In this document: positions 48,894 to 64,000 of the stretch, in pieces
How positions within the stretch are numbered: the first letter of the stretch is position 1
Layout: every line of letters starts with the position of its first letter
Assembly (NCBI GenBank): GCA_016286055.1
Contig: JAEERW010000010.1
Coordinates: 1-64,000, forward strand
DNA from: Bacteroidales bacterium
GTDB lineage: Bacteria; Bacteroidota; Bacteroidia; Bacteroidales; UBA3824
Direction: 5' to 3'
Length of the DNA: 64,000 bases
The notes under the pieces: generated by a model
What the model was told of the DNA's origin: nothing
Database searches by the model: none
The model's input: the letters and a program-made list of their open reading frames with translations, nothing else
Made by a program: the position numbers and the translations under genes

Positions 48894-49135
48894 TTATTCT
48901 CTCTATTTTTTAGTGCTTCCAAAATATCATCAACAGCATTTTCAATACTCTGAGTATGCAAAACATTATAATATTTTAGAATATATTTAGAAATTAAACC
49001 ATATTTTTGTAAACGAGCATACATTAGTTGTGGCGAAATTTGTTCCTTATCGGCTGCTCGCGATATACAAGTGGCAGCAAAACTGCACTTTAACTGATCT
49101 TCCGCAGGATACGGCATATAATTTTCTTGATTCAT
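48890..49135 (-). CDS. DUF3791-like small protein (upstream partner)
   Basis: 82 residues from the ATG at 49135. SPQLMYARLQKYGLISKYILKYYNVLHTQSIENAVDDILEAL is the helical pattern of DUF3791-type partners. First gene of the trio; ATGA overlap with the DUF3990 gene. An in-frame start at 49249 would run through the -10 element at 49152-49159 and is rejected. Confidence 0.65.
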   Translation of the reverse strand: MNQENYMPYPAEDQLKCSFAATCISRAADKEQISPQLMYARLQKYGLISKYILKYYNVLHTQSIENAVDDILEALKNRENK

Positions 49136-49151
49136 AAATAAATCTTTTCCG

Positions 49152-49200
49152 CAAATATAATAAATAAAGTGTTTTAGTATAGCATTTTTCACTATATTTG
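49152..49200. promoter_or_regulatory. Divergent promoters of the DUF3990 trio and malY-like gene
   Basis: TATATTTG on minus (49159 to 49152), 17 bases before the ATG at 49135, and TATATTTG on plus (49193-49200), 12 bases before the ATG at 49212. Confidence 0.55.
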
Positions 49201-49211
49201 CGAAAAAAGAT

Positions 49212-50384
49212 ATGATGAACCACATACATTTTATAAACCGCAGAAACACCGACTGTTACAAATGGGATTCGGTGAAAAACAACGCCGATTTTGTGCCGCT
49301 GTGGGTGGCTGATATGGATATTGCCACGCCAGAACCTATCGTAAAGACTATTGTAAACCGCGCTCAACATCCCGCTTACGGATATGTAAAAGTGCCAAAA
49401 AGATATTACGACGCTGTAACTCAATGGTTTGACACTCAGCACGGATGGAAAATCAATAGCGAGGACATTATCTACACCACAGGCGTAATTCCTGCGGTTT
49501 CGGCTGTGATTAAGGCAGTTACAAAGCCTGGCGACAATGTAATACTTTTTACACCTGTATACAATCATTTTTACTCGTCGATACGCAACAACGAATGTAA
49601 AATGGTTTCGTGTCCGCTAATTGCCGACGACAGCAATGTTTATCATATTGATTTTGAAGCATTTGAAAACATTTGTAAAACCCAAGGCGGAATACTTTTG
49701 CTCTGCAATCCTCACAACCCGACTTCAAGGGTGTTTACTCCCGAAGAATTAGACAAAATTGTGCAGATATGTCTGAAATACAATATCTTTGTAATTTCCG
49801 ACGAGATACATTGCGAAATCGTAATGCCCGGTTTTGAATATACGCCTTTTGGCAAAATAGCCGACAAATATCCGCTCAAATACGCCGTATGTAACTCACC
49901 TTCAAAGACTTTCAATACGGCAAGTCTGCAAATTGCCAACATCATCTGCAAAGATTCTGAAATAAGGGCAAAGATAGACCGCGCTATCAACATCAACGAA
50001 TGTTGCGATGTTAATCCATTTGGTTTTGAGGCACTTATCACAGGTTACACCAATGCTGATTGTAAAGAATACATCAAGCAACTTAACCAAACAATATTCA
50101 ACCATTACGAAATGGCAAAACAGTTGCTTGAAACACAGACTTCGGTGAAAATCACGCCGTTAGAAGGCACTTACCTAATGTGGATAAAGTGCAGCGAAAT
50201 AGGGCGCAAAGCGTTTGAAATGGAAAAAGAATTGATAACAAAATATAAAGTTTGGCTAAATCCGGGAACGCTTTACGGCGAAGAAGGTGAAGGTTATATG
50301 CGTATTAACCTTGCCACATCACCCAAACTGCTAAAAGAGGGCATTTCTCGATTTATAAATTATTATAAAGATTTGGTGAAATGA
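49212..50384 (+). CDS. MalY/PatB-type PLP aminotransferase, cystathionine beta-lyase
   Basis: Fold-type I PLP enzyme of 390 residues, expected to cleave cystathionine or cysteine-like C-S bonds. The MalY/PatB opening PLWVADMDIATPEPI is present; NPHNPTSRV, SDEIHCEIV and the PLP lysine K232 in SPSKTFNTASLQIAN follow in order. Overlaps the next gene by four bases. Confidence 0.92.
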   Translation: MMNHIHFINRRNTDCYKWDSVKNNADFVPLWVADMDIATPEPIVKTIVNRAQHPAYGYVKVPKRYYDAVTQWFDTQHGWKINSEDIIYTTGVIPAVSAVIKAVTKPGDNVILFTPVYNHFYSSIRNNECKMVSCPLIADDSNVYHIDFEAFENICKTQGGILLLCNPHNPTSRVFTPEELDKIVQICLKYNIFVISDEIHCEIVMPGFEYTPFGKIADKYPLKYAVCNSPSKTFNTASLQIANIICKDSEIRAKIDRAININECCDVNPFGFEALITGYTNADCKEYIKQLNQTIFNHYEMAKQLLETQTSVKITPLEGTYLMWIKCSEIGRKAFEMEKELITKYKVWLNPGTLYGEEGEGYMRINLATSPKLLKEGISRFINYYKDLVK

Positions 50385-51880
50385 AAAAGACATTGTTGAT
50401 ATTTTTTGCGTTGATAACCTGCGCTGTCGATATTTACGCCCAAAAATGCGTTACATCATCGTTTACCGCCGAACAGATGGCTTTGATGAAAAAAGACGGC
50501 ATTAAACCAGTATCAATCAGTTTTTTAGGTGGCAATTCGCGCAATTTTTACGGCTATAACCTTCCCGACAAGTTAGACACACTTTGGCAAATTGTTCTTG
50601 GAGAAGGCGTGAGTCCCGCTTACGGATACAACAAGGTTTGGAAAGGTGCAGGATGGACAGGTCAACCGCTGATTATCAACGAGAAAGGTCGCACATTTTT
50701 GATTCAAGGAGCATTTGATTACAGCATCCGCAAAATCGACGCACTCACCGGCGAAGTAGTTTGGCGCACAGTTTTCGATGATATTCTCAAAGCCACAGGA
50801 ACATTTTGCGTAAATCGCCACGCCAAAGATTTAGAAAACCGCTACATCATAATTCAAGGCAGCCGCAAAGGTTGGGACAAGGATTCGTCGAGCGCACTCT
50901 GCACAAGTCTCCGCGCAGTTTCGTACACCACAGGCAAGATACTTTGGCAGTTAAACTCCGTTGCCACAGATTGTTACAGTCGCGATGTTGACGCTTCGGC
51001 TCTTGTGGTTGGCGACACAGCATACATTCCGCTCGAAAACGGATATTTCACAGTTTTCAACCCAGACCCAGCAAAAGCCACTATGAAAGACGGCGTATTA
51101 CAACCCGAAGTTTACCGTCAGATACTCCTATATAATCAGGAAGATATAGCCACACGAGGCACCGACCTTGTGCCCGAGGCCTCTCCCACCCTGCTTGGCA
51201 ACCGCATTTACATACCTTGCAGCACAGGTTGGATTCACGGTTATAATATAAATAAAGGTGTGATTGATTGGAAAATCTTTATCGGACCCGACATCGACGG
51301 CACAATGCCCGTTACCCGCGACAATTGTCTGCTTGTGGCTATGGAAAAACAGTACATCAAAGGCAGCGCAGGCGTAATGAAAATCAATCCAGCAAAAAGT
51401 CCTGAGAATGCTGTGGAATGGTTTTTCCCAGTTGCCGATCTGCATTATTCGCATTGGGACGGCGGTGTGATTGGCTCGGTAACAATCTCAGATTCGTACT
51501 CAAAAAAAGACAACTTGGCAATATTCAACGACCTTGAAGGTTATCTCTATATACTTGATAATATGCAACTTGACGGAGATAAAAAAGTACTTGGTCCCGA
51601 CAGCCTCACCCTCTACCCTACTCCCAAACTGCTTTGCAAACAACAAACTTACCTCACCATTGCCACCCCTGTAACCGATGGCAAGCGCATTGCCGCACCC
51701 ACCGACAAAGGCTTTTATCTATTTGATATTCAAAAAGATAAAAAATCAGGTCTAATCACATTAAAACAATTAGACCTGATTCCAACGCTTCCTGCCGATG
51801 CCACACCGTCGTTTTACAACAAAATGCTGTTTGTACCTACCTACGACGGCAATATGGTTGGGTTAGGAAGGAAAAAATAA
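50381..51880 (+). CDS. Secreted PQQ-like beta-propeller protein
   Basis: Signal peptide (about residues 1-20, IYA-Q) followed by a beta-propeller with PQQ-type blades (IDALTGEVVWRTVF, TTGKILWQLNS, NINKGVIDWKIF). No BamB lipobox, so it is periplasmic or surface-exposed rather than a BamB lipoprotein. Translationally coupled (ATGA) to the MalY-type gene, an unexpected pairing whose meaning is unknown. Confidence 0.78.
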   Translation: MKKTLLIFFALITCAVDIYAQKCVTSSFTAEQMALMKKDGIKPVSISFLGGNSRNFYGYNLPDKLDTLWQIVLGEGVSPAYGYNKVWKGAGWTGQPLIINEKGRTFLIQGAFDYSIRKIDALTGEVVWRTVFDDILKATGTFCVNRHAKDLENRYIIIQGSRKGWDKDSSSALCTSLRAVSYTTGKILWQLNSVATDCYSRDVDASALVVGDTAYIPLENGYFTVFNPDPAKATMKDGVLQPEVYRQILLYNQEDIATRGTDLVPEASPTLLGNRIYIPCSTGWIHGYNINKGVIDWKIFIGPDIDGTMPVTRDNCLLVAMEKQYIKGSAGVMKINPAKSPENAVEWFFPVADLHYSHWDGGVIGSVTISDSYSKKDNLAIFNDLEGYLYILDNMQLDGDKKVLGPDSLTLYPTPKLLCKQQTYLTIATPVTDGKRIAAPTDKGFYLFDIQKDKKSGLITLKQLDLIPTLPADATPSFYNKMLFVPTYDGNMVGLGRKK

Positions 51881-51917
51881 TTTCACCATAATCACTAATT
51901 ATTTAATTCACATCACA

Positions 51918-53099
51918 ATGAAAGACTTTAAATTTTACGCTCCAACCTACGTGCAATTTGGACGCGACGCCGAACTAAAAACCGGAGAACTGGTAAAAAA
52001 ATTTGGCGGCAAAAAAGTATTGCTCCATTACGGCGGTCAAAGTGCCATTAAATCAGGACTTTTGCAGCGAGTAGAAGATTCACTCACCCAAAGCGGAATA
52101 CAATTTGTAAAACTCGGCGGCGTTGTGCCCAACCCTCGCGTTTCGTTGGTTAGAGAGGGAATCGAACTCTGCAAAAAAGAGAACATCGACTTTCTTTTGG
52201 CAGTAGGCGGCGGCTCGGTAATTGATTCGTGCAAAGCCATCAGTGCAGGACGTTTTTACAATGGCGACGTTTGGGATCTTTATCTTCGCAAAGGCGTTGC
52301 TACTGAGTATCTTCCTTTGGGATGCGTACTTACAATTCCGGCGGCAGGCAGCGAAATGAGCGACGGCTCGGTAATCACCAACGAAGATGGAGGACTCAAA
52401 AAAGACTACTGCGTTGACGAGTTCAGATGCAAATTTGCAGTAATGAACCCCGAACTCACATACACACTTCCGGCTTGGCAAACTGCGTGCGGCGTTACCG
52501 ACATTATGATGCACACTATGGAACGCTATTTTTCAAAAGACGACGAAATGGAAATCACCAACTCGCTTGCCGAAGCCGTTTTGCGCACTGCCAAAAGTCA
52601 GGTTAAAATTGCCCTTGCCAACCCCACCGACTACACAAGCCGCGCACAAATAATGTGGGCAGGCAGCGTTGCACACAACGACCTCACAGGATGCGGCACA
52701 TCGGGCGATTGGGCAACACATATGCTCGAACACGAACTCAGCGGAATGTTCGACGTTAGTCACGGCGCAGGTTTGGCAGCAATGTGGGGAAGTTGGGCGC
52801 GTTACACAATGCACGAAAACATTGCACGTTTTGCTCGCTTTGCCGTAAACGTTATGGGCGTGGAACAAGATTTTCATTCGCAAGAAGCCACAGCCGAGGC
52901 AGGCATCAAAGCAATGGAAGAATTCTATCACTCAATCGGAATGCCCACATCGATTCACGAACTCATCGGCAAAGAAATTTCCGACAAAGAAATCGAAGAA
53001 ATGGCAGACAAATGCAGCAACAACGGCACACAAACCATCGGCAGCCTCAAAGTGCTCAACCGCCAAGATATGATAAATATCTACAAAATGGCTAAATAG
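51918..53099 (+). CDS. Iron-containing alcohol dehydrogenase (YqhD/BDH-like)
   Basis: 393-residue group III alcohol dehydrogenase, probably NADPH-linked aldehyde reduction. NAD-binding GGGSVIDSCKAI near residues 95-106; metal ligands are supplied by Asp in ACGVTDIMMHTMER and His residues in MLEHELSG and DVSHGAGLA. The YqhD-like opening FYAPTYVQFG is present. Ends at a terminator. Confidence 0.9.
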   Translation: MKDFKFYAPTYVQFGRDAELKTGELVKKFGGKKVLLHYGGQSAIKSGLLQRVEDSLTQSGIQFVKLGGVVPNPRVSLVREGIELCKKENIDFLLAVGGGSVIDSCKAISAGRFYNGDVWDLYLRKGVATEYLPLGCVLTIPAAGSEMSDGSVITNEDGGLKKDYCVDEFRCKFAVMNPELTYTLPAWQTACGVTDIMMHTMERYFSKDDEMEITNSLAEAVLRTAKSQVKIALANPTDYTSRAQIMWAGSVAHNDLTGCGTSGDWATHMLEHELSGMFDVSHGAGLAAMWGSWARYTMHENIARFARFAVNVMGVEQDFHSQEATAEAGIKAMEEFYHSIGMPTSIHELIGKEISDKEIEEMADKCSNNGTQTIGSLKVLNRQDMINIYKMAK

Positions 53100-53121
53100 C
53101 ATTAAATAATTATAAAGTGAA

Positions 53122-53153
53122 AACGCCGTTTGAATATATCAGACGGCGTTTTT
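53122..53153 (+). terminator. Terminator after the alcohol dehydrogenase
   Basis: AACGCCGT pairs with ACGGCGTT around 13 bases and runs into T. Confidence 0.78.
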
Positions 53154-53178
53154 ATTATTATAAAGGTTAATCATTTGC

Positions 53179-53233
53179 AAAAAAAAGCATCCGGCTTGGT
53201 CGTCCGGATGCCAAATCAGGCCTCACGCCTGAT
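53179..53233 (-). terminator. Double-hairpin terminator of the SiaB/SiaC operon
   Basis: ATCAGGC/GCCTGAT (53215-53233) and GCATCCGG/CCGGATGC (53187-53211) form two consecutive stems; on the minus strand the second is followed by eight T. Confidence 0.78.
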
Positions 53234-53257
53234 ATTTTCGAAAAGGAATAATAAATG

Positions 53258-53641
53258 TCATTCAAATGGGACCATGTCGATTTTCAGGTTAGAACCGTAA
53301 ATATAATCCTTAATATCATCACGCATATCGGCATCGTCCTTAAAAAAATACCATACCACTTTCACTTTTCCACCTCTTTCCTCAAACCTTTTCAACACGC
53401 CAAGCATATTAAGAATCCACTTCGACGTGCTGGTGTTAAAGTATTTAAGTTGTAGAATAAATTCAATTTTCTCCGCTTGTTTAAGATAATCGGTAAGCCA
53501 TTGGAGCAAAGGTGAGTAAAACTTAGAAGTCTCCTCCAAAAACGACTCTCCTTTGATAATGCATCTTCCGGTTTGGGCGTTGAAATCAACCGCCGGCTCG
53601 ATGTAAACTTCACGCTTCTCTTCGATGAGTATATTTTCCAT
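53258..53641 (-). CDS. SiaC-like (DUF1987) phosphoprotein, copy 3
   Basis: 127 residues. DUF1987 proteins are small alpha/beta switches phosphorylated by a SiaB kinase and dephosphorylated by a SiaA (SpoIIE-type) phosphatase. The phospho-acceptor motif is intact: KYFNTSTSK with T70. The upstream PAVDFNAQTGRCIIKGESFLEET is the family's N-terminal half. Last gene of the operon, 20 bases after copy 2; no SiaB lies between them. Confidence 0.8.
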   Translation of the reverse strand: MENILIEEKREVYIEPAVDFNAQTGRCIIKGESFLEETSKFYSPLLQWLTDYLKQAEKIEFILQLKYFNTSTSKWILNMLGVLKRFEERGGKVKVVWYFFKDDADMRDDIKDYIYGSNLKIDMVPFE

Positions 53642-53661
53642 CGTGTTGCGGCGAAAAAAAG

Positions 53662-54051
53662 TTAGAACGGGATAATATTGATATTCAGACCAGTATCAAT
53701 CATATAGTCCTCAATATCCTCCTGCATATCAGAATCATTTTCGTCGTAGTGCCAGTTAACTGTCACCTCTCCACCTTCATCTTCATAATCTTTGAGCACG
53801 TTGAGCAAGTCCAATATGCATCGCGACGTACTTGTATTAAAATACGTGAGTTTGATAATGAAGGCGATGGGTTTCTTTATCTTTGTGGTAAATTCCACAA
53901 GCCAGTCTACGAGGGGTTTGTAAAACTCCGCAGTATCTTCCAAGAACGATTCGCCTGACAATTCACAGATACCGGTCTGTGCGTCGAACTTCACCGTTGG
54001 TGTGAAGAAATTTTTGTGCGATCCCTCTATTTCAATATTTTCTAATTCCAT
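53662..54051 (-). CDS. SiaC-like (DUF1987) phosphoprotein, copy 2
   Basis: 129 residues, same plan as its neighbours: TPTVKFDAQTGICELSGESFLEDT, then TYFNTSTSR with phospho-acceptor T73. The segments near the acceptor are nearly identical between copies 2 and 3, while N- and C-termini differ, so they may have separate partners. It follows a SiaB-like gene by 43 bases. Confidence 0.8.
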   Translation of the reverse strand: MELENIEIEGSHKNFFTPTVKFDAQTGICELSGESFLEDTAEFYKPLVDWLVEFTTKIKKPIAFIIKLTYFNTSTSRCILDLLNVLKDYEDEGGEVTVNWHYDENDSDMQEDIEDYMIDTGLNINIIPF

Positions 54052-54094
54052 TTTCGATTCGTGTTAATGATGACCAATTTATTTTCCTTTTCTA

Positions 54095-54673
54095 CTAATT
54101 ATTTCTAAAGTTATCCTTAGATATTTTAACCGCAAGCGAGAAGAAAGATTCGTCGTCGTTTACGGGAGTGAGTTCGATGTCGAGGGGACTTTCGGCGGTA
54201 AGAGCCACCTGAATAAGTCCGATGTTACCGCTGTTGGGCTTGCCTTCGTTGGCAAGACGCCTTTGTTCGCGGCGGTATTCACGTAGGCTTTCACGGTCGA
54301 GCGAGTTGATAGTCTCGCATTTTTCGATCACTGGCACTATATCGGTGTTGTGAACCACGTTGCCGGTTACAAATGTGTAGTAATCGCCAAATTCACCAAC
54401 CACAAGTGTTCCCATTCCAACCGATTTGCCGCTTTCAAGTTTGCAACATTCAGCGCTGTAGAGCCATACGTTTTGAGCAAGTTCCATAAAGACCTTGAAA
54501 ATCTTGTTCTTGGCCTTGTCGCTGCCTTCGTTGGTAACAAGGAGAATATTCTCGCCTATCACCGTCATTATCCTTTCGTCAATTGGACCTTTGTACGAAA
54601 CCAAGATGTTCTGATTCATCAGGTTATGGTACTCATAAAGGCTGAAATCGTATTTGTCTTTTTTCTTAACCAT
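54095..54673 (-). CDS. SiaB-like (DUF6272) protein kinase, copy 2
   Basis: 192 residues with a GHKL-type plan: N-box MELAQN ending at N68, a GMGTL strand near 86-90, and a G-box-like NSGNIGLIQVAL (148-158). The Pseudomonas homologue phosphorylates SiaC. Preceded by its own TATATTTG element, so it heads a unit B2-C2-C3. C-terminal residues lack any other domain. Confidence 0.78.
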   Translation of the reverse strand: MVKKKDKYDFSLYEYHNLMNQNILVSYKGPIDERIMTVIGENILLVTNEGSDKAKNKIFKVFMELAQNVWLYSAECCKLESGKSVGMGTLVVGEFGDYYTFVTGNVVHNTDIVPVIEKCETINSLDRESLREYRREQRRLANEGKPNSGNIGLIQVALTAESPLDIELTPVNDDESFFSLAVKISKDNFRNN

Positions 54674-54698
54674 ATCAAAGTCAATTTTAGGTCAGATG

Positions 54699-54706
54699 CA
54701 AATATA
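54699..54706 (-). promoter_or_regulatory. Internal TATATTTG -10 element, second SiaB/SiaC unit
   Basis: Minus-strand TATATTTG about 26 bases before the ATG of the second SiaB gene, splitting the cluster into B1-C1 and B2-C2-C3 units. Confidence 0.55.
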
Positions 54707-54752
54707 AACTTAATTTCTTTTATATTAAAATATTAGCGTACAATTATTGTCA

Positions 54753-55145
54753 TTATTCTACCTCGGATATTGGTATAATGTTGATATCCAAGCCGGTTTC
54801 GAGTATAAAATCTTCTACTTCTTCGAGTTCTTCTTCCGAATCATCGTAGTACCAGTTAACTTCAACCTCGCCGCCCTCTTTCTGGTATTTTTTGAGCATA
54901 TCAAGAATGTCAACAAGGCACTTTGAACTACTTGTATTAAAGTAACTAAGCCTGAAGTTGAATTTGAGAGGACCTTTCACCGTTTCGGTGTATTCTTTTA
55001 TCCACGCAAAAAGCGGAGTATAGAATTTGATGGTCTCCTCCAAATATGATTCGCCCTCAAGTTCGCAGATTCCTGTTTTGGAATCGAAGTTTACCGTGGG
55101 TACGAAGAATGCTTCGTGTACGCCTTTAATATGAATGTCGTTCAT
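54753..55145 (-). CDS. SiaC-like (DUF1987) phosphoprotein, copy 1
   Basis: 130 residues. Phospho-acceptor motif SYFNTSSSK with T71; VPTVNFDSKTGICELEGESYLEET in the N-terminal half. More acidic at the C-terminus (EEELEEVEDF) than the other two copies. It follows the first SiaB gene by 44 bases and precedes a 79-base gap with an internal promoter. Confidence 0.8.
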   Translation of the reverse strand: MNDIHIKGVHEAFFVPTVNFDSKTGICELEGESYLEETIKFYTPLFAWIKEYTETVKGPLKFNFRLSYFNTSSSKCLVDILDMLKKYQKEGGEVEVNWYYDDSEEELEEVEDFILETGLDINIIPISEVE

Positions 55146-55189
55146 TTTGTTTCTAAGTTTTTATTAACAATTTGTACGTTCATACAAAA

Positions 55190-55720
55190 CTATTTGTTTA
55201 TCTTAACACTGACTATATAAAAATAATTGTTGTCTTCGCATTTTACCACTCCATACTCAATCGGGTTGTCGGCGGTTAGTGCCACCTGAATAAGACCGAT
55301 GTTGCCGCCGCCCTTGTTGCTCGCCGGCATATTGCGTTGAAGCCTACGGTATTCGCGTAGTTTGTCGCGAGTCATGGAGTTGATGTTGTCGCATTTCTCA
55401 ATAACTGGGATAATGCTCTCCATTGTGGTTTTGTTTCCAGTAGAAAACTGGAAATAGTCGTCGTATTCTTTGATAAGCATTGTGCCTACGCCCATCGATT
55501 CGCCCGACGAGTTGGGCTCGCGCTCGAGACTATACTGAGATATGTTCTGAGCCAATTCCAAAAATATCTTGAATACTTTCTTGGTAACCTTGTCATTAGA
55601 TGTAAGCGTACCTTCTATACCCTGAGCCAAAATGGTGAGGATTTCAGAGTCGAACAATCCTGTGTATGAAATACACACATTGTCGGTGGCTCTTCTTTTA
55701 TTTGTAGTTACGCTTTCCAT
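55190..55720 (-). CDS. SiaB-like (DUF6272) protein kinase, copy 1
   Basis: 176 residues from the ATG at 55720 (an upstream in-frame ATG at 55759 would add 13 residues). N-box FLELAQN ending at N59, GVGTML strand, and G-box GGGNIGLIQVAL (137-148), closely matching copy 2. Basic N-terminal residues (NKRRA). First gene of the cluster on this strand; a TATTTTTG element about 175 bases upstream may be its promoter. Confidence 0.78.
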   Translation of the reverse strand: MESVTTNKRRATDNVCISYTGLFDSEILTILAQGIEGTLTSNDKVTKKVFKIFLELAQNISQYSLEREPNSSGESMGVGTMLIKEYDDYFQFSTGNKTTMESIIPVIEKCDNINSMTRDKLREYRRLQRNMPASNKGGGNIGLIQVALTADNPIEYGVVKCEDNNYFYIVSVKINK

Positions 55721-56154
55721 ATCTGTATTTATTTTTTTTCGTAATAAATCAATAATCAAACCAATTTTGATTCAGAGACTCCTTTTTTTAGCCTCAAAAT
55801 CATATTAAATAAAATATCTATTTGATTATCAGAATGTTAAATAGCATAAAAAAAATAATTTTTTATTACTAAACATAGTATCTAATAACATCTCAAAAAT
55901 ATTAAATATTTCTATATGTATGCAAATTTTTTTGTAATAAAATTAACGCAAAGTTTATTTTTTTTTGTAGGAAACGCAAAAAATGTTTGTAAGATGATTT
56001 ATTTATTTGATTATTAGATATTTACAAAATTATTACTTTATCCTCGACAACTATATATATTAATAAGGTGTGAACACGCGATAAAAAATGTTAAACTTAT
56101 CGGTTTTTATAAAAAAGAGAACTATATTTGCATCAAGATAAAGAAAAAAGAGAC
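55721..56154. other. 434-base AT-rich intergenic region
   Basis: Long, strongly AT-rich gap between the divergent SiaB and esterase genes. I can support two promoter boxes: TATTTTTG on minus (55901 to 55894), which would give the SiaB gene a leader of about 165 bases, and TATATTTG on plus (56123-56130). No frame, terminator or known RNA motif stands out; the long leader could hold a regulatory structure, but I see no clear hairpin. Confidence 0.5.
56123..56130 (+). promoter_or_regulatory. TATATTTG -10 element for the esterase-hydrolase-phosphatase unit
   Basis: TATATTTG 25 bases before the ATG at 56155; an in-frame TTG at 56128 lies inside it and is not a start. Confidence 0.55.
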
Positions 56155-56940
56155 ATGAAAAACATCATTTTTACATTGGCACTAATAACGGCTACGTGCG
56201 CATTATACGCTCAGCAGCCCGACGAGCAACTACGAAAGCACTTTGCAAAGTGCTATTTTACCGACACATGCAACACGGTGTTGCCTTACCGCTTGCTGTC
56301 ACCCTTAAATGTTGATTCCACCAAAAAGTATCCTGTGGTGCTGTTTCTTCATGGCGCGGGCGAACGCGGCAACGACAACGAAGCGCAACTCACCTATATG
56401 GATAAGATTTTCGGTAGCAATAGTTTCCGTCAGAAATATCCTTGCTACGTAATTCTACCACAGTGCGCCGAAAATTTCCGTTGGTGCGAAACCGACTGGA
56501 CTCTGCCCTCGCACACCATGCCCGACACTATTTCGGTGTATCTAAATGCCGCTAACCAATTGTTAGACAGTATTGTAAAGGCTGTTAACGCCGACACCTC
56601 ACGACTATATATCACAGGCATGTCGATGGGCGGATTTGGCACTTGGGATTTGATTTCGCGATATCCTAATAAGTTTGCTGCAGCAGTGCCTATTTGCGGA
56701 GGTGCCGACCTCAATATGGCGTGCATTCTAAAAGATATGCCTATAAAAACATATCACGGCTCGGTAGATAAACTCGTAAAAGTAACCCGCACACGCAACA
56801 TGACCATTGCTATACACAAATGCGGAGGCAACAAAATAGACTACACAGAACTCACAGGCAAGGGACATCTTATTTGGAATCAAGTATATAACATGCCTTC
56901 AACATTTCAATGGATGTTTGCCCAAAAGAAAAATAAATAA
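56155..56940 (+). CDS. Secreted alpha/beta-hydrolase esterase
   Basis: 261 residues with signal peptide (about 1-18, LYA-Q). Catalytic triad visible: S157 in GMSMGG, Asp in HGSVDKLV, His in GKGHLIW. The oxyanion segment FLHGAGERGND is typical of the PHB-depolymerase/feruloyl-esterase-like group. Substrate unknown. First of three plus-strand genes with tiny gaps (2 and 28 bases) ending in the SpoIIE-type phosphatase. Confidence 0.85.
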   Translation: MKNIIFTLALITATCALYAQQPDEQLRKHFAKCYFTDTCNTVLPYRLLSPLNVDSTKKYPVVLFLHGAGERGNDNEAQLTYMDKIFGSNSFRQKYPCYVILPQCAENFRWCETDWTLPSHTMPDTISVYLNAANQLLDSIVKAVNADTSRLYITGMSMGGFGTWDLISRYPNKFAAAVPICGGADLNMACILKDMPIKTYHGSVDKLVKVTRTRNMTIAIHKCGGNKIDYTELTGKGHLIWNQVYNMPSTFQWMFAQKKNK

Positions 56941-56942
56941 CC

Positions 56943-57713
56943 ATGAAACCTCTTTGGAAATTTATAGGAATTTTAGCCGCAACTACCGCAATATTAGCGG
57001 CTTATTCGTTTAGTGGCACTCGCGCCCAGATTGCAGGAGCCGAAATTAAACCTTCGGACATGAAAACATTTATGTGCGGCGACACTACTCCTGTATACGC
57101 CACAGAAATGTACACTTCGGAATACACACCGCAAACAGGCATCGACAGCACGTCGCAGACCATTCTGCTTATTGGCGACAGTATGTTGGAACAATTTCGC
57201 TGGCGTCTGCGTGATTATTGCGCCGAAAACGGACATCAGATGCAATCGGTAATTTGGTATAGTTCGCAAAGCGAATGGTATGGCAAAACCGACACGCTCA
57301 AATACTTTATCAACAAGTTTAAACCCACATACGTGATATTGATTCTCGGTGCCAACGAACTTTTTGTGCGCGACATCATAACCAAACGCACTCCGTATGT
57401 AAAACACATTATAGAACAGATAGATACAATTCCGTTTATATGGGTGGGACCGCCCAACTGGAAAGAAGACACAGGCATCAACGAAATGATAGTTTCAAAC
57501 GTTGGTAGTCGTCAATACTATCCGTCTAAAAACTTGAAATACAAGCGATATGCCGACGGTGCACATCCAAAACCAGAATCCGCCTCTATGTGGTGCGATT
57601 CGGTGGCAAAATTCATAATGGAAAAAAGCCGCCACCCTATTTTGTTGAATCCTCCTACAAAAAAATATACAGGCTCGCCTAATTCTACTATTTTGCAACC
57701 GTGGAAACAATAA
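56943..57713 (+). CDS. Membrane-anchored SGNH/GDSL hydrolase
   Basis: 256 residues. N-terminal membrane helix or signal (about 6-25). SGNH blocks: LLIGDSMLEQ (Ser), LILGANE (block III-like) and DGAHP (Asp-His pair). Members of this SGNH group are often O-acetyl esterases or transferases acting on polysaccharides. It follows the esterase by two bases, so the two may act on one acylated glycan (inference). Confidence 0.8.
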   Translation: MKPLWKFIGILAATTAILAAYSFSGTRAQIAGAEIKPSDMKTFMCGDTTPVYATEMYTSEYTPQTGIDSTSQTILLIGDSMLEQFRWRLRDYCAENGHQMQSVIWYSSQSEWYGKTDTLKYFINKFKPTYVILILGANELFVRDIITKRTPYVKHIIEQIDTIPFIWVGPPNWKEDTGINEMIVSNVGSRQYYPSKNLKYKRYADGAHPKPESASMWCDSVAKFIMEKSRHPILLNPPTKKYTGSPNSTILQPWKQ

Positions 57714-57741
57714 AATTTGTAAATTATTAACACACAACAAC

Positions 57742-59214
57742 ATGCCAGATATTAACACTATCCAACCATATCTTTTAAGCCCCAATATTGGGATTATTGT
57801 AGATATTGTGGCATTAGTGGTTATTGTTGTGCTAGTTATAAAAATAATCCGCGACTACCGAATCATTAAAGCCAGCCATATTTTTTCTGAACTTTCGCAA
57901 TCGGCCGAAATTCCTATATTCATCATCGACGACTTACATCACTTATATTGGACCAACGCCGAACAAGTATCGTATCTCACCAATATCAACCACAATAGGG
58001 CTCTCGCATTATTTTTTGCCGATGCCACAGCAGTAGGCAAACTCAACGAGTGCTTTGCAACTGGCATTTCACAGCATATCGAAAAGTCTTTCAAAATTGG
58101 TGACAAAACATTTTGGTTTCTCATCACGCTGGCAAAACTAAAATCTAAAAACCTTGTTTCAGGATTCTTGTCGGATATTACCGAACAAAAATCAGCCTCG
58201 CAAAAGATAGAAAACCTGCAACGCGAAATGCAAATGCAAAACGAAATGCTGTCGATAATAACAGCACAGCTCGAAGTGCAGCAGGCGGCTATGAAAGAGC
58301 AAAACGAAGTGCTCACCCGACAGCACCAAACCCTCGAAATGCAAGCACGTATGCTCAAAACCAACAACGAGGAACTGGAACTGCGCAACAAACTGATTAC
58401 CAAAAAGAACAATTATATCACCGACAGCATACGGTATGCACAAACCATTCAGGAGGCTCTTTTGCCAAGCGACAAGCAGATGCGAGGATTCTTCGACAAC
58501 TTTGTAATTTACCGTCCCAAGGATATTGTATCGGGAGATTTCTACTGGTTTGCTGTTACCGATAATTATATTTTCACAGTTATGGGCGACTGTACAGGGC
58601 ATGGTGTGCCGGGTGCATTTATGAGCATGATAGGCGTAAGACTGCTCGGTGAACTGATAACCGAAAACAAGATAGACCGCCCTTCGGTAATTCTCGAAGC
58701 CATGAACGACAAGATTGTGGCTGCGCTCAAACAAGACACCACCGAAAACACCGACGGAATGGATATTGCCATTTGCCGTTTTAAACGAGTATTTGATGGC
58801 GACCACGACTACGAACTTAAATTCGCAGGAGCAAAACAGCCAGTGTACCTACTACGACAAGGCAGCACCGAAGTGGAGTCGATTCCTTCCGACCGTAGAG
58901 GCATTGGAGGGCAAGCGGCTTATTCGGATGTATTCTTCTTTGAGGATTACGACTATAATCTCAATATCGGCGACCGCATCTACTTGTCGACCGACGGAAT
59001 CAAAGACCAGAACAACCTTATGCGTAAACGCTTTGGAACCAACCGTTTAAAGATGATTCTCCAATATACCTCCACAGAAAAAATCACCGACCAAAAACGC
59101 TTTATCGAAGAGGTACTCAACCATTGGCAAGGACTTGAAGAACAACGCGACGACATTTCGTTATGGGGAATAGAACTTGGAGATAAAATTCTTTTGCCAG
59201 AAAGTACGCTATGA
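57742..59214 (+). CDS. Membrane SpoIIE-type PP2C phosphatase (SiaA-like)
   Basis: 490 residues. One membrane helix (about 17-35), a PAS-like sensor segment (about 50-145), a long coiled coil (about 148-225, rich in Gln/Met/Glu) and a SpoIIE/PP2C domain (about 240-485). Metal and substrate motifs: PKDIVSGDFYW, MGDCTGHGVPGAFMSMI and LSTDGIKDQ. In the Sia system such a phosphatase removes phosphate from SiaC. Its place 2 kb from three SiaC genes, reading away from them, makes it the likely phosphatase of the switch. The DUF of the sensor ligand is unknown. Confidence 0.85.
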   Translation: MPDINTIQPYLLSPNIGIIVDIVALVVIVVLVIKIIRDYRIIKASHIFSELSQSAEIPIFIIDDLHHLYWTNAEQVSYLTNINHNRALALFFADATAVGKLNECFATGISQHIEKSFKIGDKTFWFLITLAKLKSKNLVSGFLSDITEQKSASQKIENLQREMQMQNEMLSIITAQLEVQQAAMKEQNEVLTRQHQTLEMQARMLKTNNEELELRNKLITKKNNYITDSIRYAQTIQEALLPSDKQMRGFFDNFVIYRPKDIVSGDFYWFAVTDNYIFTVMGDCTGHGVPGAFMSMIGVRLLGELITENKIDRPSVILEAMNDKIVAALKQDTTENTDGMDIAICRFKRVFDGDHDYELKFAGAKQPVYLLRQGSTEVESIPSDRRGIGGQAAYSDVFFFEDYDYNLNIGDRIYLSTDGIKDQNNLMRKRFGTNRLKMILQYTSTEKITDQKRFIEEVLNHWQGLEEQRDDISLWGIELGDKILLPESTL

Positions 59215-59234
59215 ATTTGAAAATTGATAATTAA

Positions 59235-60476
59235 TTATCTGAAATTAACCACCTTAGCAGGTTCCATCTTGCTAATAGCCATACTCGGTAAAACCAACAT
59301 AATGCTCATTACCAACAGTGTTCCAAAATCAATGGCTATGAAATACCAAAACTGAAATTCCGCTGGCACATGGTCGACATAATACGACTGAGGGTCAAGC
59401 CCAACAAGATGAAAACACTGTTCTAGAAGAATCAAAACAGCCGCCACTATGTTGCCAATAATAACACCTTTGCCTGTAATATACATCGATTGAATAATAA
59501 AAATCTTGCGTATCAGCCAGTTGCAACTTCCAACAGCCTTCATTATACCTATCATAGCGGCTCGCTCAAAAATAATAATAAGCATGGCGGTTGACATATT
59601 AACAAAAGCCACAAAAAACATAATGCCCAATATCACATACACGTTCATCTCTGTAAGTGTAATCCAATCAAATAGTTGACGATTATTTTCTTTAACATTT
59701 GTAACTCTGAGCATACTACCGTCTTCGGCTATCTGATATCCGGCATACTCCTGCACAAGAGCGGTCATCTCATCGAGTTTTGCAAAATCGTCGATCATCA
59801 CCTCAAAACCAGAAATCTGATTATCATTCCATGAATTAAGTTTCTGAATGTCTGACATATCGCTAAAACAAAACATCTTGTCGTACTCTTCAAGTCCAGT
59901 TTGGTAGATGCCCGAAACTGTATACTTGCGCATCCTTGGAGGGTCTTGCACAAAATAGGCTACCAACTTGCTTCCCACCGAAAGATTAAGAAGGTCGGCC
60001 ATACGTTTTGAAATAAGCATAGCATCCGATTTATCACCGTCAACAATTTTGGGAACAGAACCTTCTACCAGGTTGTCTTCAAAAAAACCAAAATCATACT
60101 CCTGTCCAACTCCCTTGATAACAACCCCGAGAATATCGGCACCCGATTTCAAAATAGCGGGTTTCATCACATAACGCTGAATATGTTTGATACCGTCCTC
60201 GTTTTCAATAGCAGGATAAAAATCTTGATGAGAACTTATGGGCATAGTTTCATAATTGCCGCCAGATTCGCGATTTACAATATTTACACACGAACCAAAA
60301 CCCACCACCTTGTCCATAATTTCGTCTTTGAAACCGATAATTACCGACATCGAAACTATCATCACAGCCACACTGATGGCAACTGCGGCAACGGCAATCT
60401 TCACCACAGTAGACGAAACGCCTTTATTATATGTCTTGCCCGATATTCTGCGGGCTATAAACCATTCTAATTTCAA
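59235..60476 (-). CDS. LolC/E-like ABC transporter permease (FtsX-type), TTG start
   Basis: About 414 residues. Opening KLEWFIARRISGKTYNKGVSST is typical of LolC/E-type lipoprotein-releasing permeases; four membrane helices (about 27-50 and three between about 275 and 400) surround a periplasmic MacB-like domain. I place the start at TTG 60476: the ATG at 60518 lies upstream of the TAACTTTG promoter element and cannot be in the transcript. No ATPase gene adjoins it, so LolD must be elsewhere. Converges on the phosphatase gene across a GATAATTAATTATC palindrome. Confidence 0.83.
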   Translation of the reverse strand: MKLEWFIARRISGKTYNKGVSSTVVKIAVAAVAISVAVMIVSMSVIIGFKDEIMDKVVGFGSCVNIVNRESGGNYETMPISSHQDFYPAIENEDGIKHIQRYVMKPAILKSGADILGVVIKGVGQEYDFGFFEDNLVEGSVPKIVDGDKSDAMLISKRMADLLNLSVGSKLVAYFVQDPPRMRKYTVSGIYQTGLEEYDKMFCFSDMSDIQKLNSWNDNQISGFEVMIDDFAKLDEMTALVQEYAGYQIAEDGSMLRVTNVKENNRQLFDWITLTEMNVYVILGIMFFVAFVNMSTAMLIIIFERAAMIGIMKAVGSCNWLIRKIFIIQSMYITGKGVIIGNIVAAVLILLEQCFHLVGLDPQSYYVDHVPAEFQFWYFIAIDFGTLLVMSIMLVLPSMAISKMEPAKVVNFR

Positions 60477-60499
60477 ATCTATTGCACTTTTTTTCGCGA

Positions 60500-60566
60500 C
60501 AAAGTTAAACAAAAGCAAATATTATCTCAAAAAAATGCGCAGTTTATCTAAATTTTAATACATTTG
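60500..60566. promoter_or_regulatory. Divergent promoters of the LolC-like and MlaD genes
   Basis: TAACTTTG on minus (60507 to 60500) for the permease, and TACATTTG on plus (60559-60566), 21 bases before the MlaD ATG. Confidence 0.55.
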
Positions 60567-60586
60567 CAAACTAATTAACGCAAAAA

Positions 60587-61555
60587 ATGGAAAAAAGAAC
60601 ACTCATAAAGATTGGCATTGTGGCAGTAATATCGCTCACACTGCTTGTTTGGGGATTGAGTTTTCTCAAAGGAGAAAACCTCTTCTCCACCGAAAACGAA
60701 TACATAGCCATTTACGACAAAATCGACGGTCTGCAAGAGTCAAATCCTGTAACCCTCAGCGGTTTCAAAATCGGAAAGGTAACCTCAATAGACTTTGCCG
60801 GTGACGACAAGATGAGCATTGCCGTTAAATTGCACATTATCAACGATTTCAACATTCCCAAAGGCACAACTGCCAAAATTGTGAATATGGACATCATGGG
60901 TACAAAGGGCATAGAAATCATCTGTCCAAAGTCTTACGATGGCTATCACGAAAACGGCGACACCCTCAAAGCCTCGCGCGAAGGCGGAATACTTGACCAG
61001 ATGTTGGAATTGGTGCTGCCAATGAAAGACGACCTTGTAGGATTTTTATCCGCTTCTGACTCTGTGATGCACTCGCTCAACGTACTTCTCAACGAAAACA
61101 ACAGAGAAAACATAAGCGCAAGTCTCGGCAACCTCCGTGTGCTAACATCGCACCTGAGCCAAAACTCAAACCGTATCGACAGCATTATGCGCAACCTCAC
61201 CAAGGCAAGCAACAGCCTCGGACAAAACAGCGGCAACATAGATCGAGCCATCAACAATTTTGCTACACTCAGCGACACGCTTGCGCAATTAAATCTTAAT
61301 CAAGCAATTGTAAACGCACAACAATCGCTCGAACAATTAAACGTTTTGCTCAATTCAATCAACAACGGCAACGGAAGCATTTCTAAGATTATCAAAAGCG
61401 ACAGCATCTACAATAGTCTTGAACGTGCTAGCGCCCAACTCGACATCATATTAAACGAATTTGAAAAGAACCCCAAAAAATATATCAACTTATCTGTTTT
61501 CGGCGGCAAAGACAAATCGCAGAAAAAGAACAAAAAGAACCAACAGCAGCAATGA
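60587..61555 (+). CDS. MlaD/MCE-domain lipid transport protein
   Basis: 322 residues: membrane anchor (about 6-25), MCE domain (about 37-115: YDKIDGLQESNPVTLSGFKIGKV, GTKGIEI), then a long helical tail with Asn/Ser-rich heptads (about 150-300) that can trimerise or hexamerise. Lys/Gln-rich C-terminus. Known role: moving phospholipids between the two membranes. ATGA overlap with the following cinA-type gene. No MlaE/F genes in view. Confidence 0.9.
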   Translation: MEKRTLIKIGIVAVISLTLLVWGLSFLKGENLFSTENEYIAIYDKIDGLQESNPVTLSGFKIGKVTSIDFAGDDKMSIAVKLHIINDFNIPKGTTAKIVNMDIMGTKGIEIICPKSYDGYHENGDTLKASREGGILDQMLELVLPMKDDLVGFLSASDSVMHSLNVLLNENNRENISASLGNLRVLTSHLSQNSNRIDSIMRNLTKASNSLGQNSGNIDRAINNFATLSDTLAQLNLNQAIVNAQQSLEQLNVLLNSINNGNGSISKIIKSDSIYNSLERASAQLDIILNEFEKNPKKYINLSVFGGKDKSQKKNKKNQQQQ

Positions 61556-62040
61556 CACCTCCCAACCAAGCCGAAATATTAATTGACCTACTAAGAAATC
61601 ACAATGCAACATTCTGTACAGCAGAGAGTTGTACAGGAGGCAACATTTCGGCTGTGCTTACCCGCATACCCGGTTGTAGCGATGTGTTCAAAGGGGCGGC
61701 TGTTACATATTGCAACGAAGCCAAGCAGAATATACTCGGAGTGTCGCCGCTAACATTAGAAACCTACACCGCAGTAAGCCTTGAAACTGTAAAAGAGATG
61801 GCAGAAGGCGCACTAAATCTATACAACACCGACTATGCGGCATCGGTGTCGGGATGTGCTGGACCTGGTGGAGGAACACCAGATATTCCCGTGGGCACTA
61901 TCTGTTTTGGATTTGCTGCCAAAGGCAAAGAGACGATAGTACAAAAAATTATCTTCAAAGGTAGCCGTATCGACAACATCAACCAAGCCACTGCGCATGT
62001 GATTGATACAATGATAAATATTATTGGTTCAAAGGCTTAG
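61552..62040 (+). CDS. CinA-C / PncC nicotinamide-nucleotide amidase
   Basis: 162 residues, single CinA C-terminal domain. TAESCTGGNISA, GAAVTYCNEAKQNILGV and SVSGCAGPGGGTPDIPVGTI are diagnostic. Deamidates NMN in the pyridine nucleotide cycle. Coupled by four bases to the MCE gene; its last 20 bases overlap the convergent ATP-grasp gene. Confidence 0.92.
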   Translation: MTPPNQAEILIDLLRNHNATFCTAESCTGGNISAVLTRIPGCSDVFKGAAVTYCNEAKQNILGVSPLTLETYTAVSLETVKEMAEGALNLYNTDYAASVSGCAGPGGGTPDIPVGTICFGFAAKGKETIVQKIIFKGSRIDNINQATAHVIDTMINIIGSKA

Positions 62041-63199
62041 CCAAGATACCAGCGGCAAATCGCTGAGCATTAGAAGGAGTCATCCTCAAAAAACCTGACA
62101 CAAGTTTACCATCATCAAAAACAGGTTTTTGTTGTGCAAACTGCTCTATATCAGTATCTTGCAACACATAAAAATCGGCAATCGAATTATCAGCCACAAG
62201 GTGCGACACATCCATTGCAAGGCGTCCCATACTGTAACGGCAGTTAACCTCCACACATGGATTAATCTTCAATCCGCCTTCGTTTTCGGAATATACCATA
62301 CAATCGATACCCAAAGGACCATTGTAAATATCGCAATATGGCGAATGGGCAAGGCACCTTTTCAAGATGTTGACAAAATTTTCGGCAACAGAGAGATCAA
62401 AAAACTCTACTTCATCGTATTTTTTAACCTTACTACAACGATAAAAACCGCTTTCGGTAGTTTCAAAACGTGAAAAACCACGGAACACAGGCTTATGACC
62501 CACAATATCAAAATGTGCCGAAAAATCACGCACCTTGTTAAACAGAGGTTCGCATGCCACGCCACCCTGCGATTTAATAACAAAGTTGGTCCATTGCAAA
62601 ATATTACTGCTTAGATCGTTGCGACGGAATATTCTAACACCGCGACCACTGCTGCCATAGAGCGCCTTAAAAACTACACCACCAAATCGGTTTGTGGCAT
62701 AGTTAAAATATTCGATAGCACGTTTAGCATCATTTGTTACAAAAGGGGCTTGTTGCTCAGTGGGAAAGATATCTAAATGATTGCTTTTTTCAACAAACAA
62801 GCGAAACAATTCAGTAGATGTTTTGCGGTTGAAAAGCATTTTTTGCGAAGGCTTAAAACCAAATCCATAATTCGCTGGGAACATAGATTTAAACCTTTCG
62901 GCAATGTGCCAAGCACGAGGAGAGTGTCCCCAAGGCTCAAAACCATCAAAACTTACATCTGACAAAGGAAGTCGGCTATCAGATTTGATGAAACATACGT
63001 TATAATAATTTCTCCAAAACGAAATAAAATCCTCGTTAGGAATCTGATTCACAATTATATAATCACCGTTATTGCTAAAAAACATAGGCAACACCGACAA
63101 ATCGTCTTCGATCATAGCGGGATTTTTGGGCAATTGGAAGAAAGGCGAACCATTAGCCACCTCCAACTCACATCCCGGGTTAAACAATCGAAGTTTCAT
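62021..63199 (-). CDS. ATP-grasp-like protein, unknown substrate
   Basis: 392 residues. VVFKALYGSSGRGVRIF forms the ATP-grasp glycine-rich loop, and GPLGIDCMVYSENEGGLKINPCVEVNCRYSMG is the metal/ADP end with Asp, Glu and Asn ligands. The opening RLFNPGCELEVANG is a pattern I associate with an uncharacterised Bacteroidetes family. Substrates (two components joined by an amide or ester) cannot be read. Starts two bases after the LptD gene ends, so it shares its transcript. Confidence 0.78.
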   Translation of the reverse strand: MKLRLFNPGCELEVANGSPFFQLPKNPAMIEDDLSVLPMFFSNNGDYIIVNQIPNEDFISFWRNYYNVCFIKSDSRLPLSDVSFDGFEPWGHSPRAWHIAERFKSMFPANYGFGFKPSQKMLFNRKTSTELFRLFVEKSNHLDIFPTEQQAPFVTNDAKRAIEYFNYATNRFGGVVFKALYGSSGRGVRIFRRNDLSSNILQWTNFVIKSQGGVACEPLFNKVRDFSAHFDIVGHKPVFRGFSRFETTESGFYRCSKVKKYDEVEFFDLSVAENFVNILKRCLAHSPYCDIYNGPLGIDCMVYSENEGGLKINPCVEVNCRYSMGRLAMDVSHLVADNSIADFYVLQDTDIEQFAQQKPVFDDGKLVSGFLRMTPSNAQRFAAGILAKPLNQ

Positions 63200-63201
63200 A
63201 A

Positions 63202-64000
63202 TCAGTTGTCGCGCCAGTTTTGATTACGTTTATATTCAAAGCCTTGGAATAGATGCGATTTGAATGCAAGAGTAAAGTTGTAGCTCTTATACACACCAAA
63301 CGGAATAATATAAAAACTAAGACCAAAGCAATGCAAATCGCGCGTTACAGAGAGCGACGAAGTAGAGAATTTACCTTCTTGAATATCATATCCTGAGGAA
63401 ATACTCATACTCCATTTATCGGTAAAAGTAACTGAACCAGAAATATTAATAATCTGACTAACAGTAGCAGGCTTTCGCGAAGGTTTTGCATAAGAAAAAG
63501 AGTATGTGCCGCTAATAGACCAAGGTATACTATAATAAGCATATTCATTGTTGTCTTGTTCGCTACGTTTTTTACGATCAAGAAGTTGTTGACGTTCAAG
63601 ACGACGCTCTTCCACCTCCTCGGCTGTTGCCACAATGTTGCCATAATCATCCACTTCGGCTTCATCACCGTAATCGGCAGACAATTTACTATCGGAATTA
63701 CTCGATGACTTATCTCGTGCAAAGGTTTTATTATCAATAGTATAAGAAGTAGAAATATTAACATCTGTAATTCTACCCCATCTACGACCATTTGTTTCTT
63801 TCATTAAATAGAACCGAGTTTTACGACCTGCACTATCAAGCATATAAGGGTCTAATTTGGCATTAAAATTAATGTTGGTTTTGTCAAACAAACGTGTACC
63901 AGCTTTAATAGTTATAATAGATAGCTTGCACGAATCGGCAGCAAGATTGTAAGAACCACTAATATCAAAGGACTCCAACAATTTAATTTTAGTATAATCA
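63202..64000 (-). CDS. lptD: LptD-like LPS assembly protein, C-terminal part
   Basis: The frame is open to the window edge, so the 5' part is missing. About 266 residues are visible: beta-barrel strands with alternating aromatic residues, an acidic/charged loop (about 3 kDa, with EEVEERRLERQQLLDRK), and the last strands YNFTLAFKSHLFQGFEYKRNQNWRDN-like end, typical of Bacteroidetes 'putative LPS assembly protein LptD'. It inserts lipopolysaccharide into the outer leaflet. Two bases separate it from the ATP-grasp gene. Confidence 0.78.
   Translation of the reverse strand, partial: DYTKIKLLESFDISGSYNLAADSCKLSIITIKAGTRLFDKTNINFNAKLDPYMLDSAGRKTRFYLMKETNGRRWGRITDVNISTSYTIDNKTFARDKSSSNSDSKLSADYGDEAEVDDYGNIVATAEEVEERRLERQQLLDRKKRSEQDNNEYAYYSIPWSISGTYSFSYAKPSRKPATVSQIINISGSVTFTDKWSMSISSGYDIQEGKFSTSSLSVTRDLHCFGLSFYIIPFGVYKSYNFTLAFKSHLFQGFEYKRNQNWRDN

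Follow-up and report, generated by a model that had tools for sequence, protein, structure and literature searches.

Partner switches of the RsbU-RsbW-RsbV and SpoIIE-SpoIIAB-SpoIIAA type combine a GHKL kinase, a STAS-like phosphoprotein and a SpoIIE-type phosphatase. In Pseudomonas aeruginosa, SiaA and SiaB cycle SiaC at T68, with E61 of SiaB as the predicted catalytic residue (PMC7647112), and SiaC in turn activates SiaD (PMC8457831). The latter study, published in eLife, suggests that DUF1987 proteins commonly modulate adjacent proteins, and a survey of Campylobacterota, citing SiaABCD, presents it as a system in which PP2C/STAS signalling has merged with cyclic di-GMP (c-di-GMP; PMC9239204). 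Here we describe a related locus in a 64,000-nucleotide stretch of the genome of a gut Bacteroidales bacterium (positions 1 to 64,000 of contig JAEERW010000010.1, assembly GCA_016286055.1), the whole of which is hereafter called the window. We consider it probable that this locus is a two-module Ser/Thr partner switch of the SiaA-SiaB-SiaC type, working by a route other than c-di-GMP, and, as part of the same explanation, that it is a single node in a network comprising 16 SiaC, 11 SiaB and about 45 SpoIIE genes.

The core of the locus is a minus-strand tandem of five genes, B1-C1-B2-C2-C3, encoding two SiaB-type (DUF6272) kinases and three SiaC-type phosphoproteins. Both kinases, B1 (55190-55759, its TTG start being a mechanical call) and B2 (54095-54673), match PF19788, with 100 and 106 bits respectively (Pfam cut-off 26.6 bits), and C1 (54753-55145), C2 (53662-54051) and C3 (53258-53641) match PF09345 with 134, 137 and 114 bits (cut-off 24.5 bits). 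In a sequence search of the PDB, C2 matched the Pseudomonas SiaC structures 6kko, 6kkp, 7e6g and 6k4f at E 2e-16 (1.9e-16 for 6kko_C) over an alignment spanning the NTSS acceptor, and B2 matched the SiaB chain 6kko_A at E 4.6e-12. The acceptor reads NTSSS in C1 and NTSTS in C2 and C3, its Thr being intact in all three and aligned at the T68-equivalent position; relative to C2, C1 is 53% and C3 48% identical. A preliminary description, made from the sequence alone, had proposed two SiaB-type kinases and three SiaC-type targets on one strand, each with an intact phospho-acceptor, and Pfam, PDB, gene positions and alignment all agree with it. The profile search that it called for placed all five B and C proteins above the Pfam cut-offs and SpoIIE at 67.6 bits.

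The E..QN motif of the kinases is invariant across 20 aligned SiaB proteins, and its Glu was equated by eye with E61 of SiaB. An AlphaFold model of B1 (predicted local distance difference test, pLDDT, 81.7) has the 6kko SiaB as its top structure (E 1e-9), followed by kinases of the UsfX/SpoIIAB/RsbW type. This second tier of matches would suit a reading in which SiaB is an anti-sigma factor and SiaC an anti-anti-sigma factor, following the logic of RsbW/RsbV or SpoIIAB/SpoIIAA, and the output is transcription; SiaC has itself been likened to an anti-sigma factor antagonist (PMC7647112), and a sigma-70-like protein is encoded upstream in two of the loci compared below (L094 and L105, by eye). 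Nevertheless, SiaB is by far the closest structure to the B1 model, and inspection by eye revealed no sigma factor next to the window block, the neighbours of the other loci having been viewed by eye alone. We regard a sigma-factor output as very unlikely.

The putative phosphatase of the switch is encoded 2 kb from the B-C block, as the last gene of a divergent plus-strand set with intergenic gaps of 2 and 28 bases. This set comprises a putative secreted esterase (Abhydrolase_2, 56128-56940; PF02230, 37.5 bits), an SGNH/DUF459-like protein (56943-57713; PF04311 at 21 bits, short of the 27.2-bit cut-off) and a SpoIIE/PP2C phosphatase (57742-59214; PF07228), the order of the first two genes being conserved in related loci. 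By alignment with other SpoIIE proteins the phosphatase carries the PP2C motifs GDFYWF, GDCTGHG, STDG and RDD, and inspection by eye shows a single hydrophobic segment near the N-terminus as well as a DITEQK-type linker; a SiaA-like role is the one we would assign to it. Of the membrane PP2C phosphatase with a PAS-like sensor that had been described at this distance, the SpoIIE domain and the hydrophobic segment stand, and the PAS-like part gave no Pfam match at E 0.01. The constituents of a SiaABC system, namely SiaC with a phosphorylatable Thr, a GHKL-fold SiaB with the Glu motif and a linked SpoIIE/PP2C protein, are thus all present. The esterase and SGNH genes were rejected as effector candidates, since both products look exported (by eye) and would hardly bind cytosolic SiaC; they are retained solely as neighbours of SpoIIE. 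On its other side the block ends with C3 convergent to an iron alcohol dehydrogenase gene.

To see how far this arrangement is kept, 16 loci from 16 of 17 congeners were compared. The order B-C-B-C recurs in all 16, the third SiaC in 13 (the other three contigs stop at or near C2) and the divergent SpoIIE in 12, the remaining four loci being on short contigs, with the esterase still present in two of them. The outer flanks vary among the species of the genus. Among the five, C2 evolves most slowly (90-99% identity in those genus loci in which it was called) and C3 most rapidly (51-97%, on the same basis). In a genome of another family (G033), B1-C1-B2-C2-C3 is followed by a same-strand SpoIIE protein with Reg_prop and Y_Y_Y domains, and a further genome (G053) has a SpoIIE-B-B2-C2-C3 run, again with SpoIIE on the strand of the block, plus a B1-C1 pair at a separate site. 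The arrangement B-C-C is also found in other Bacteroidales (L077-L079 and L081-L083; L080 starts at SiaC). A SpoIIE phosphatase with Reg_prop and Y_Y_Y domains is encoded at L067:7891-11331; such sensors resemble those of Bacteroides hybrid regulators.

In trees built on a chosen subset of loci, C1, C2 and C3 each fall in a clade of their own that includes several families, with matching B1- and B2-type kinases in the genus, G033 and G053. The suggestion that these are paralogous switches holds. Together with the separation of B1-C1 from B2-C2-C3 in G053, the separate clades indicate that the two modules are old and favour pairing of B1 with C1 and of B2 with C2 and C3 over general cross-talk. 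Distance matrices of SiaB and SiaC correlate across 147 distinct adjacent pairs (of 165, after repeats and SiaC under 105 amino acids were dropped) with r=0.81, common descent contributing to this value; none of 500 permutations exceeded 0.08. Our best reading is accordingly of two old switch modules, both fed by SpoIIE, and the simplest assignment in the window would have B1 acting on C1 and B2 on C2 and C3. Several loci speak against so strict a division: in L077-L082 the kinases branch as a sister group of B2, L083 combines a B1-type kinase with C1- and C2-type SiaC, and L076, L085 and L087 carry both kinase types with one C2-type SiaC. Such mixing of B1/B2 and C1/C2 types, like the close tandem arrangement and the identities of C1 and C3 to C2 given above, is what might be expected if the extra copies were redundant, adding to the dosage of a single switch in which every kinase could act on every SiaC. 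The family-spanning clades, the split of the modules in G053 and the promoter-like element described next all count against such redundancy, which appears quite unlikely.

The preliminary description had placed an internal promoter between B1-C1 and B2-C2-C3. The 79-base gap between C1 and B2 (54674-54752, minus strand) contains the promoter-like sequence TATATTTG, located at -33 from the B2 start. An element TAnnTTTG(CA), in which we take TAnnTTTG to be the Bacteroides -7 element, lies 5' of B2 in 15 of 15 genus loci (the window plus 14; L060 and L062, with ambiguous open reading frames, were left out of this comparison). Relative to the B2 start it sits at -29 to -35 in 14 of the 15; the offset of -10 in L064 probably reflects a start called too far upstream. 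The element is absent from G033, where the C1-B2 gap is 17 bases. In the window no clear -33 box accompanies it, and a generic sigma-70 scan of the block gave 13 matches against 11.1 in shuffles, hence no excess. Since the element is kept across the genus loci, the internal promoter is supported as a conserved element, and a promoter-like sequence can be said to separate B1-C1 from B2-C2-C3. A second promoter-like sequence, TTTG-N21-TATTTTTG, is found 5' of B1 (55894-55926, minus strand); its pattern occurs 15 times in the window, where 4.7 chance occurrences would be expected. A scan of positions 49000-64000 with Rfam returned nothing at the gathering threshold.

We propose that the membrane SpoIIE phosphatase would sense a cue and dephosphorylate C1, C2 and C3, that B1 would re-phosphorylate C1 and B2 would re-phosphorylate C2 and C3 at the conserved Thr, and that unphosphorylated SiaC would bind effectors whose genes lie outside the locus and would thereby switch them. 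With two transcription units, the modules could be set separately by the cell.

The multiplied target noted beforehand is present at the locus in the form of its three SiaC genes, yet the multiplication turns out to be genome-wide. The genome to which the window belongs encodes 16 SiaC proteins and 16 DUF6272 domains, the latter spread over 11 genes of which five specify tandem double-domain proteins, and yields 46 SpoIIE matches, two of which are halves of one gene (hence about 45 genes). The acceptor residue is Thr in 12 and Ser in 4 of the 16 SiaC, so that the hydroxyl is kept in all. The 17 congeners have 12-20 SiaC each, and among 227 SiaC open reading frames (a set that includes contigs counted twice) 215 have Thr, 10 have Ser and 2 match no motif. 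A table of SiaB/SiaC subtype motifs was set aside, 40 single-domain pairs having fallen in the class 'other'.

Some variants of these parts are worth recording. The window itself holds a tandem double-DUF6272 SiaB, at a separate locus and with no adjacent SiaC (23496-24647, plus strand), followed by a protein that by eye resembles methyl-accepting chemotaxis proteins (25046-26857, plus strand). In the second DUF6272 domain the ATP-lid glycine motif is partly lost, which suggests a kinase joined to a partly degenerate kinase. Single polypeptides of 505-519 amino acids with two SiaB domains and one SiaC occur in L175, L177 and L178, and a small RsbW-like ATPase (by eye; L011:12393-12788) lies near a lone SiaC that has no adjacent SiaB. 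On contig C22 of genome G000, five SpoIIE genes stand in a run beside phage-like genes (L214:6209-14861, by eye). Elsewhere in the window, two small overlapping open reading frames at 48408-49249 (minus strand) look by eye like what we take to be a DUF3990/DUF3791 pair.

No GGDEF domain was matched in this genome, which is 99.17% complete, and the same search was positive in 8 of 14 control genomes. Because no such domain was found, the output should be something other than c-di-GMP, as had been anticipated. The classical arrangement does exist in the phylum: four genomes of family f71, which lies outside the class, have GGDEF after SpoIIE-SiaB-SiaC (L194, L195, L197 and L200, the last with the frames of SpoIIE, SiaB and GGDEF broken or split), as in Pseudomonas. 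GGDEF thus adjoins SiaC in four of the seven SiaC loci examined in this family, L196, L198 and L199 being without it. Inside the class, three genomes of family f52, with one SiaC match each, encode SpoIIE-SiaB-SiaC-TerB/ABC (L190-L192) and give no GGDEF match. The last protein of this operon consists of a TerB domain (Pfam, L150), a part weakly resembling FHA, an ABC ATPase and an ABC-2 membrane part.

We examined the order in a sample of 59 genomes, 18 from the genus (the window's own included) and one from each of 41 other families. SiaC, DUF6272 and the TerB/ABC-2 protein were found in an identical set of 35 of these genomes, representing 18 of 42 families, a co-occurrence with a chance probability of about 3e-12 if the families were independent, which they are not fully. 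All 35 have at least 4 SpoIIE matches and the 24 others 0-2; at most 45 SpoIIE candidates per genome were scored, so high counts are lower bounds. Across the 18 SiaC-containing families, the number of SiaC rises with that of DUF6272 (Spearman 0.89), with the lower-bound number of SpoIIE (0.72) and with that of TerB-ABC (0.67), the TerB-ABC numbers being lower bounds as well. GGDEF was detected in one of the 59 genomes, which has no SiaC, and hence in 0 of the 35 with SiaC. Canonical SiaABCD logic would have the SiaC proteins activate an unlinked GGDEF diguanylate cyclase. It can draw on the families that the window proteins share with P. aeruginosa SiaB and SiaC and on the four GGDEF-bearing loci of the same phylum, outside the class; set against the absence of GGDEF matches from the window's genome, with controls positive, and from every SiaC-containing genome of the order sample, it is strongly disfavoured and in our view extremely improbable.

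At the level of the phylum, 395 genomes were sampled, with part of the candidates scored, so that counts are lower bounds (at least 11 SiaC for the window's genome, which has 16). SiaC was found in at least 22 genomes, a TerB-ABC match in at least 11 and both in at least 8, five of the latter in the window's class (at least 1142 bits) and three in f90 (about 500 bits, over part of the model). The five SiaC-containing genomes of the class (the window's own included) have no GGDEF match; outside the class, 16 of 17 SiaC-containing genomes have GGDEF. Given that GGDEF is common outside the class (203 of the 395 genomes are positive, 201 of them outside it), a phylum-wide association of SiaC with GGDEF is no test of linkage, and operon adjacency was used instead.

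By this measure, the order points to the TerB-ABC protein. Its gene lies downstream of a same-strand SiaC in 14 of the 18 SiaC-containing families (G052 and G024 judged from coordinates); of the other four, G050 and G055 have convergent SiaC and TerB/ABC genes, and G021 and G026 gave no resolved arrangement. From this position and from the co-occurrence, the TerB/ABC-2 exporter is most likely the effector of the SiaC of its own operon in the best-conserved node, where the GGDEF protein SiaD stands canonically. The TerB domain was matched by Pfam in L150 (E 2e-6); the protein of the window's genome gave no TerB match at E 0.001, and no FHA match was obtained. A pThr-binding FHA domain was considered for the N-terminus and rejected: with a model of pLDDT 72.5, built from 5 sequences, Foldseek gave no match at E 0.001, the best being the Porphyromonas unknown-function protein 2h5n (E 0.025). 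FHA chains fill much of the remaining list, and on inspection by eye the alignment does not show the canonical phosphate-binding residues of FHA in any evident form; in view of this weak resemblance the part is named FHA-like only. Genes for CheR, CheB and GAF proteins lie upstream of SpoIIE-SiaB-SiaC-TerB/ABC in L150 (Pfam), and alike by eye in L152 and L166, and may constitute a chemosensory-like input to the partner switch.

Our broader proposal is tentative. The output of SiaABC may have changed in this order and its relatives, with SiaC, unphosphorylated or Thr-phosphorylated, gating TerB/FHA-like/ABC-2 exporters, and the head may have been amplified into a phospho-network that replaces c-di-GMP signalling, in which a genome may have as many as 20 SiaC and at least 45 SpoIIE matches and the window locus is one node. 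The window's genome has four TerB-ABC genes, on contigs C35, C5 (two) and C24, and none lies downstream of SiaC at the window locus. The window SiaC clade is separate from most TerB/ABC-linked SiaC; an exporter is a candidate output for this locus by analogy with paralogues of another clade.

A number of observations weigh against this proposal or against parts of the switch model. No effector gene adjoins the window locus, and L128 is the sole locus in which a TerB-ABC gene follows a SiaC of the wider window-type class. Among 79 related loci, 37 have their first non-switch gene beyond SiaC on the opposite strand and 36 have it on the same strand, while in 6 it falls past the contig end; just 14 of the 36 same-strand genes belong to a family present in two or more loci. 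In the phylum sample, with its lower-bound scoring, 14 of 22 SiaC-containing genomes show no TerB-ABC match, and a TerB-ABC match without SiaC was obtained in G405 (784 bits) and in G198 and G238 (both partial). SpoIIE could, moreover, have other substrates. Finally, operons resembling B2-C2-C3 precede genes of another kind, namely same-strand DUF481, ssb-like and gldE-like (CNNM/CBS) genes in L077-L081 (the contig of L082 ends after DUF481), and in G053 the SpoIIE-B-B2-C2-C3 run is followed by ssb-like, gldE-like and gldD genes, the names ssb and gldE being given by eye and recall and GldD by a Pfam match.

These last neighbours point to envelope or gliding machinery, a DUF481 barrel or the GldE/GldD context, rather than an exporter as the effector of C2 and C3. 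We hold this to be unlikely: none of DUF481, ssb, gldE or gldD was identified beside the window block, ssb-gldE-gldD is a common housekeeping gene order in Bacteroidota, and the DUF481 proteins look exported, so that direct binding of cytosolic SiaC is hardly possible. Other SiaC genes immediately precede those for a PAS histidine kinase in L015, a Gate/nucleoside-recognition protein in L012 and a UbiD decarboxylase in L019, and these neighbours are possible further effectors.

For SiaC, the sole output of which we found a description is SiaD, the Pseudomonas diguanylate cyclase. Within titles and the beginnings of abstracts, mostly of open papers (most subscription papers and preprints fell outside this scope), we found neither a description of a Bacteroidales SiaABC network nor a paper describing the SpoIIE-SiaB-SiaC-TerB/ABC-2 operon. 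If the proposed change of output is true, gut and environmental bacteria in which GGDEF is not detected would use dozens of Thr partner switches, with exporters among their outputs. In the f52 genomes, where one SiaC was found, the question is reduced to one operon whose output is directly testable, and the modulation of adjacent proteins suggested for DUF1987 (PMC8457831) becomes testable beyond c-di-GMP. The order-wide network and the difference between GGDEF and exporter operons add interest beyond the locus itself.

Compared with RsbU-RsbW-RsbV and SpoIIE-SpoIIAB-SpoIIAA, the window locus has the same types of kinase, phosphoprotein and phosphatase; it differs in that no sigma factor partner was recognised and in that SiaC and DUF6272 constitute separate Pfam families. 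With SiaA-SiaB-SiaC-SiaD of P. aeruginosa (PMC7647112, PMC8457831; 6kko, 6k4f, 7e6g) it shares the acceptor Thr at the same aligned position, the SiaB kinase fold with the E..QN motif and a SpoIIE/PP2C phosphatase nearby. Unlike that system, it has two kinases, three SiaC and a divergent phosphatase 2 kb off, and it lies in a genome with no GGDEF match and with a network of 16 SiaC. The SpoIIE-SiaB-SiaC-TerB/ABC-2 operon of the order and f52 has the same phosphatase-kinase-SiaC head and, likewise, no GGDEF was found in the genomes that carry it; in contrast to the window locus, this operon has one kinase and one SiaC, both of a different clade, and carries its effector candidate within.

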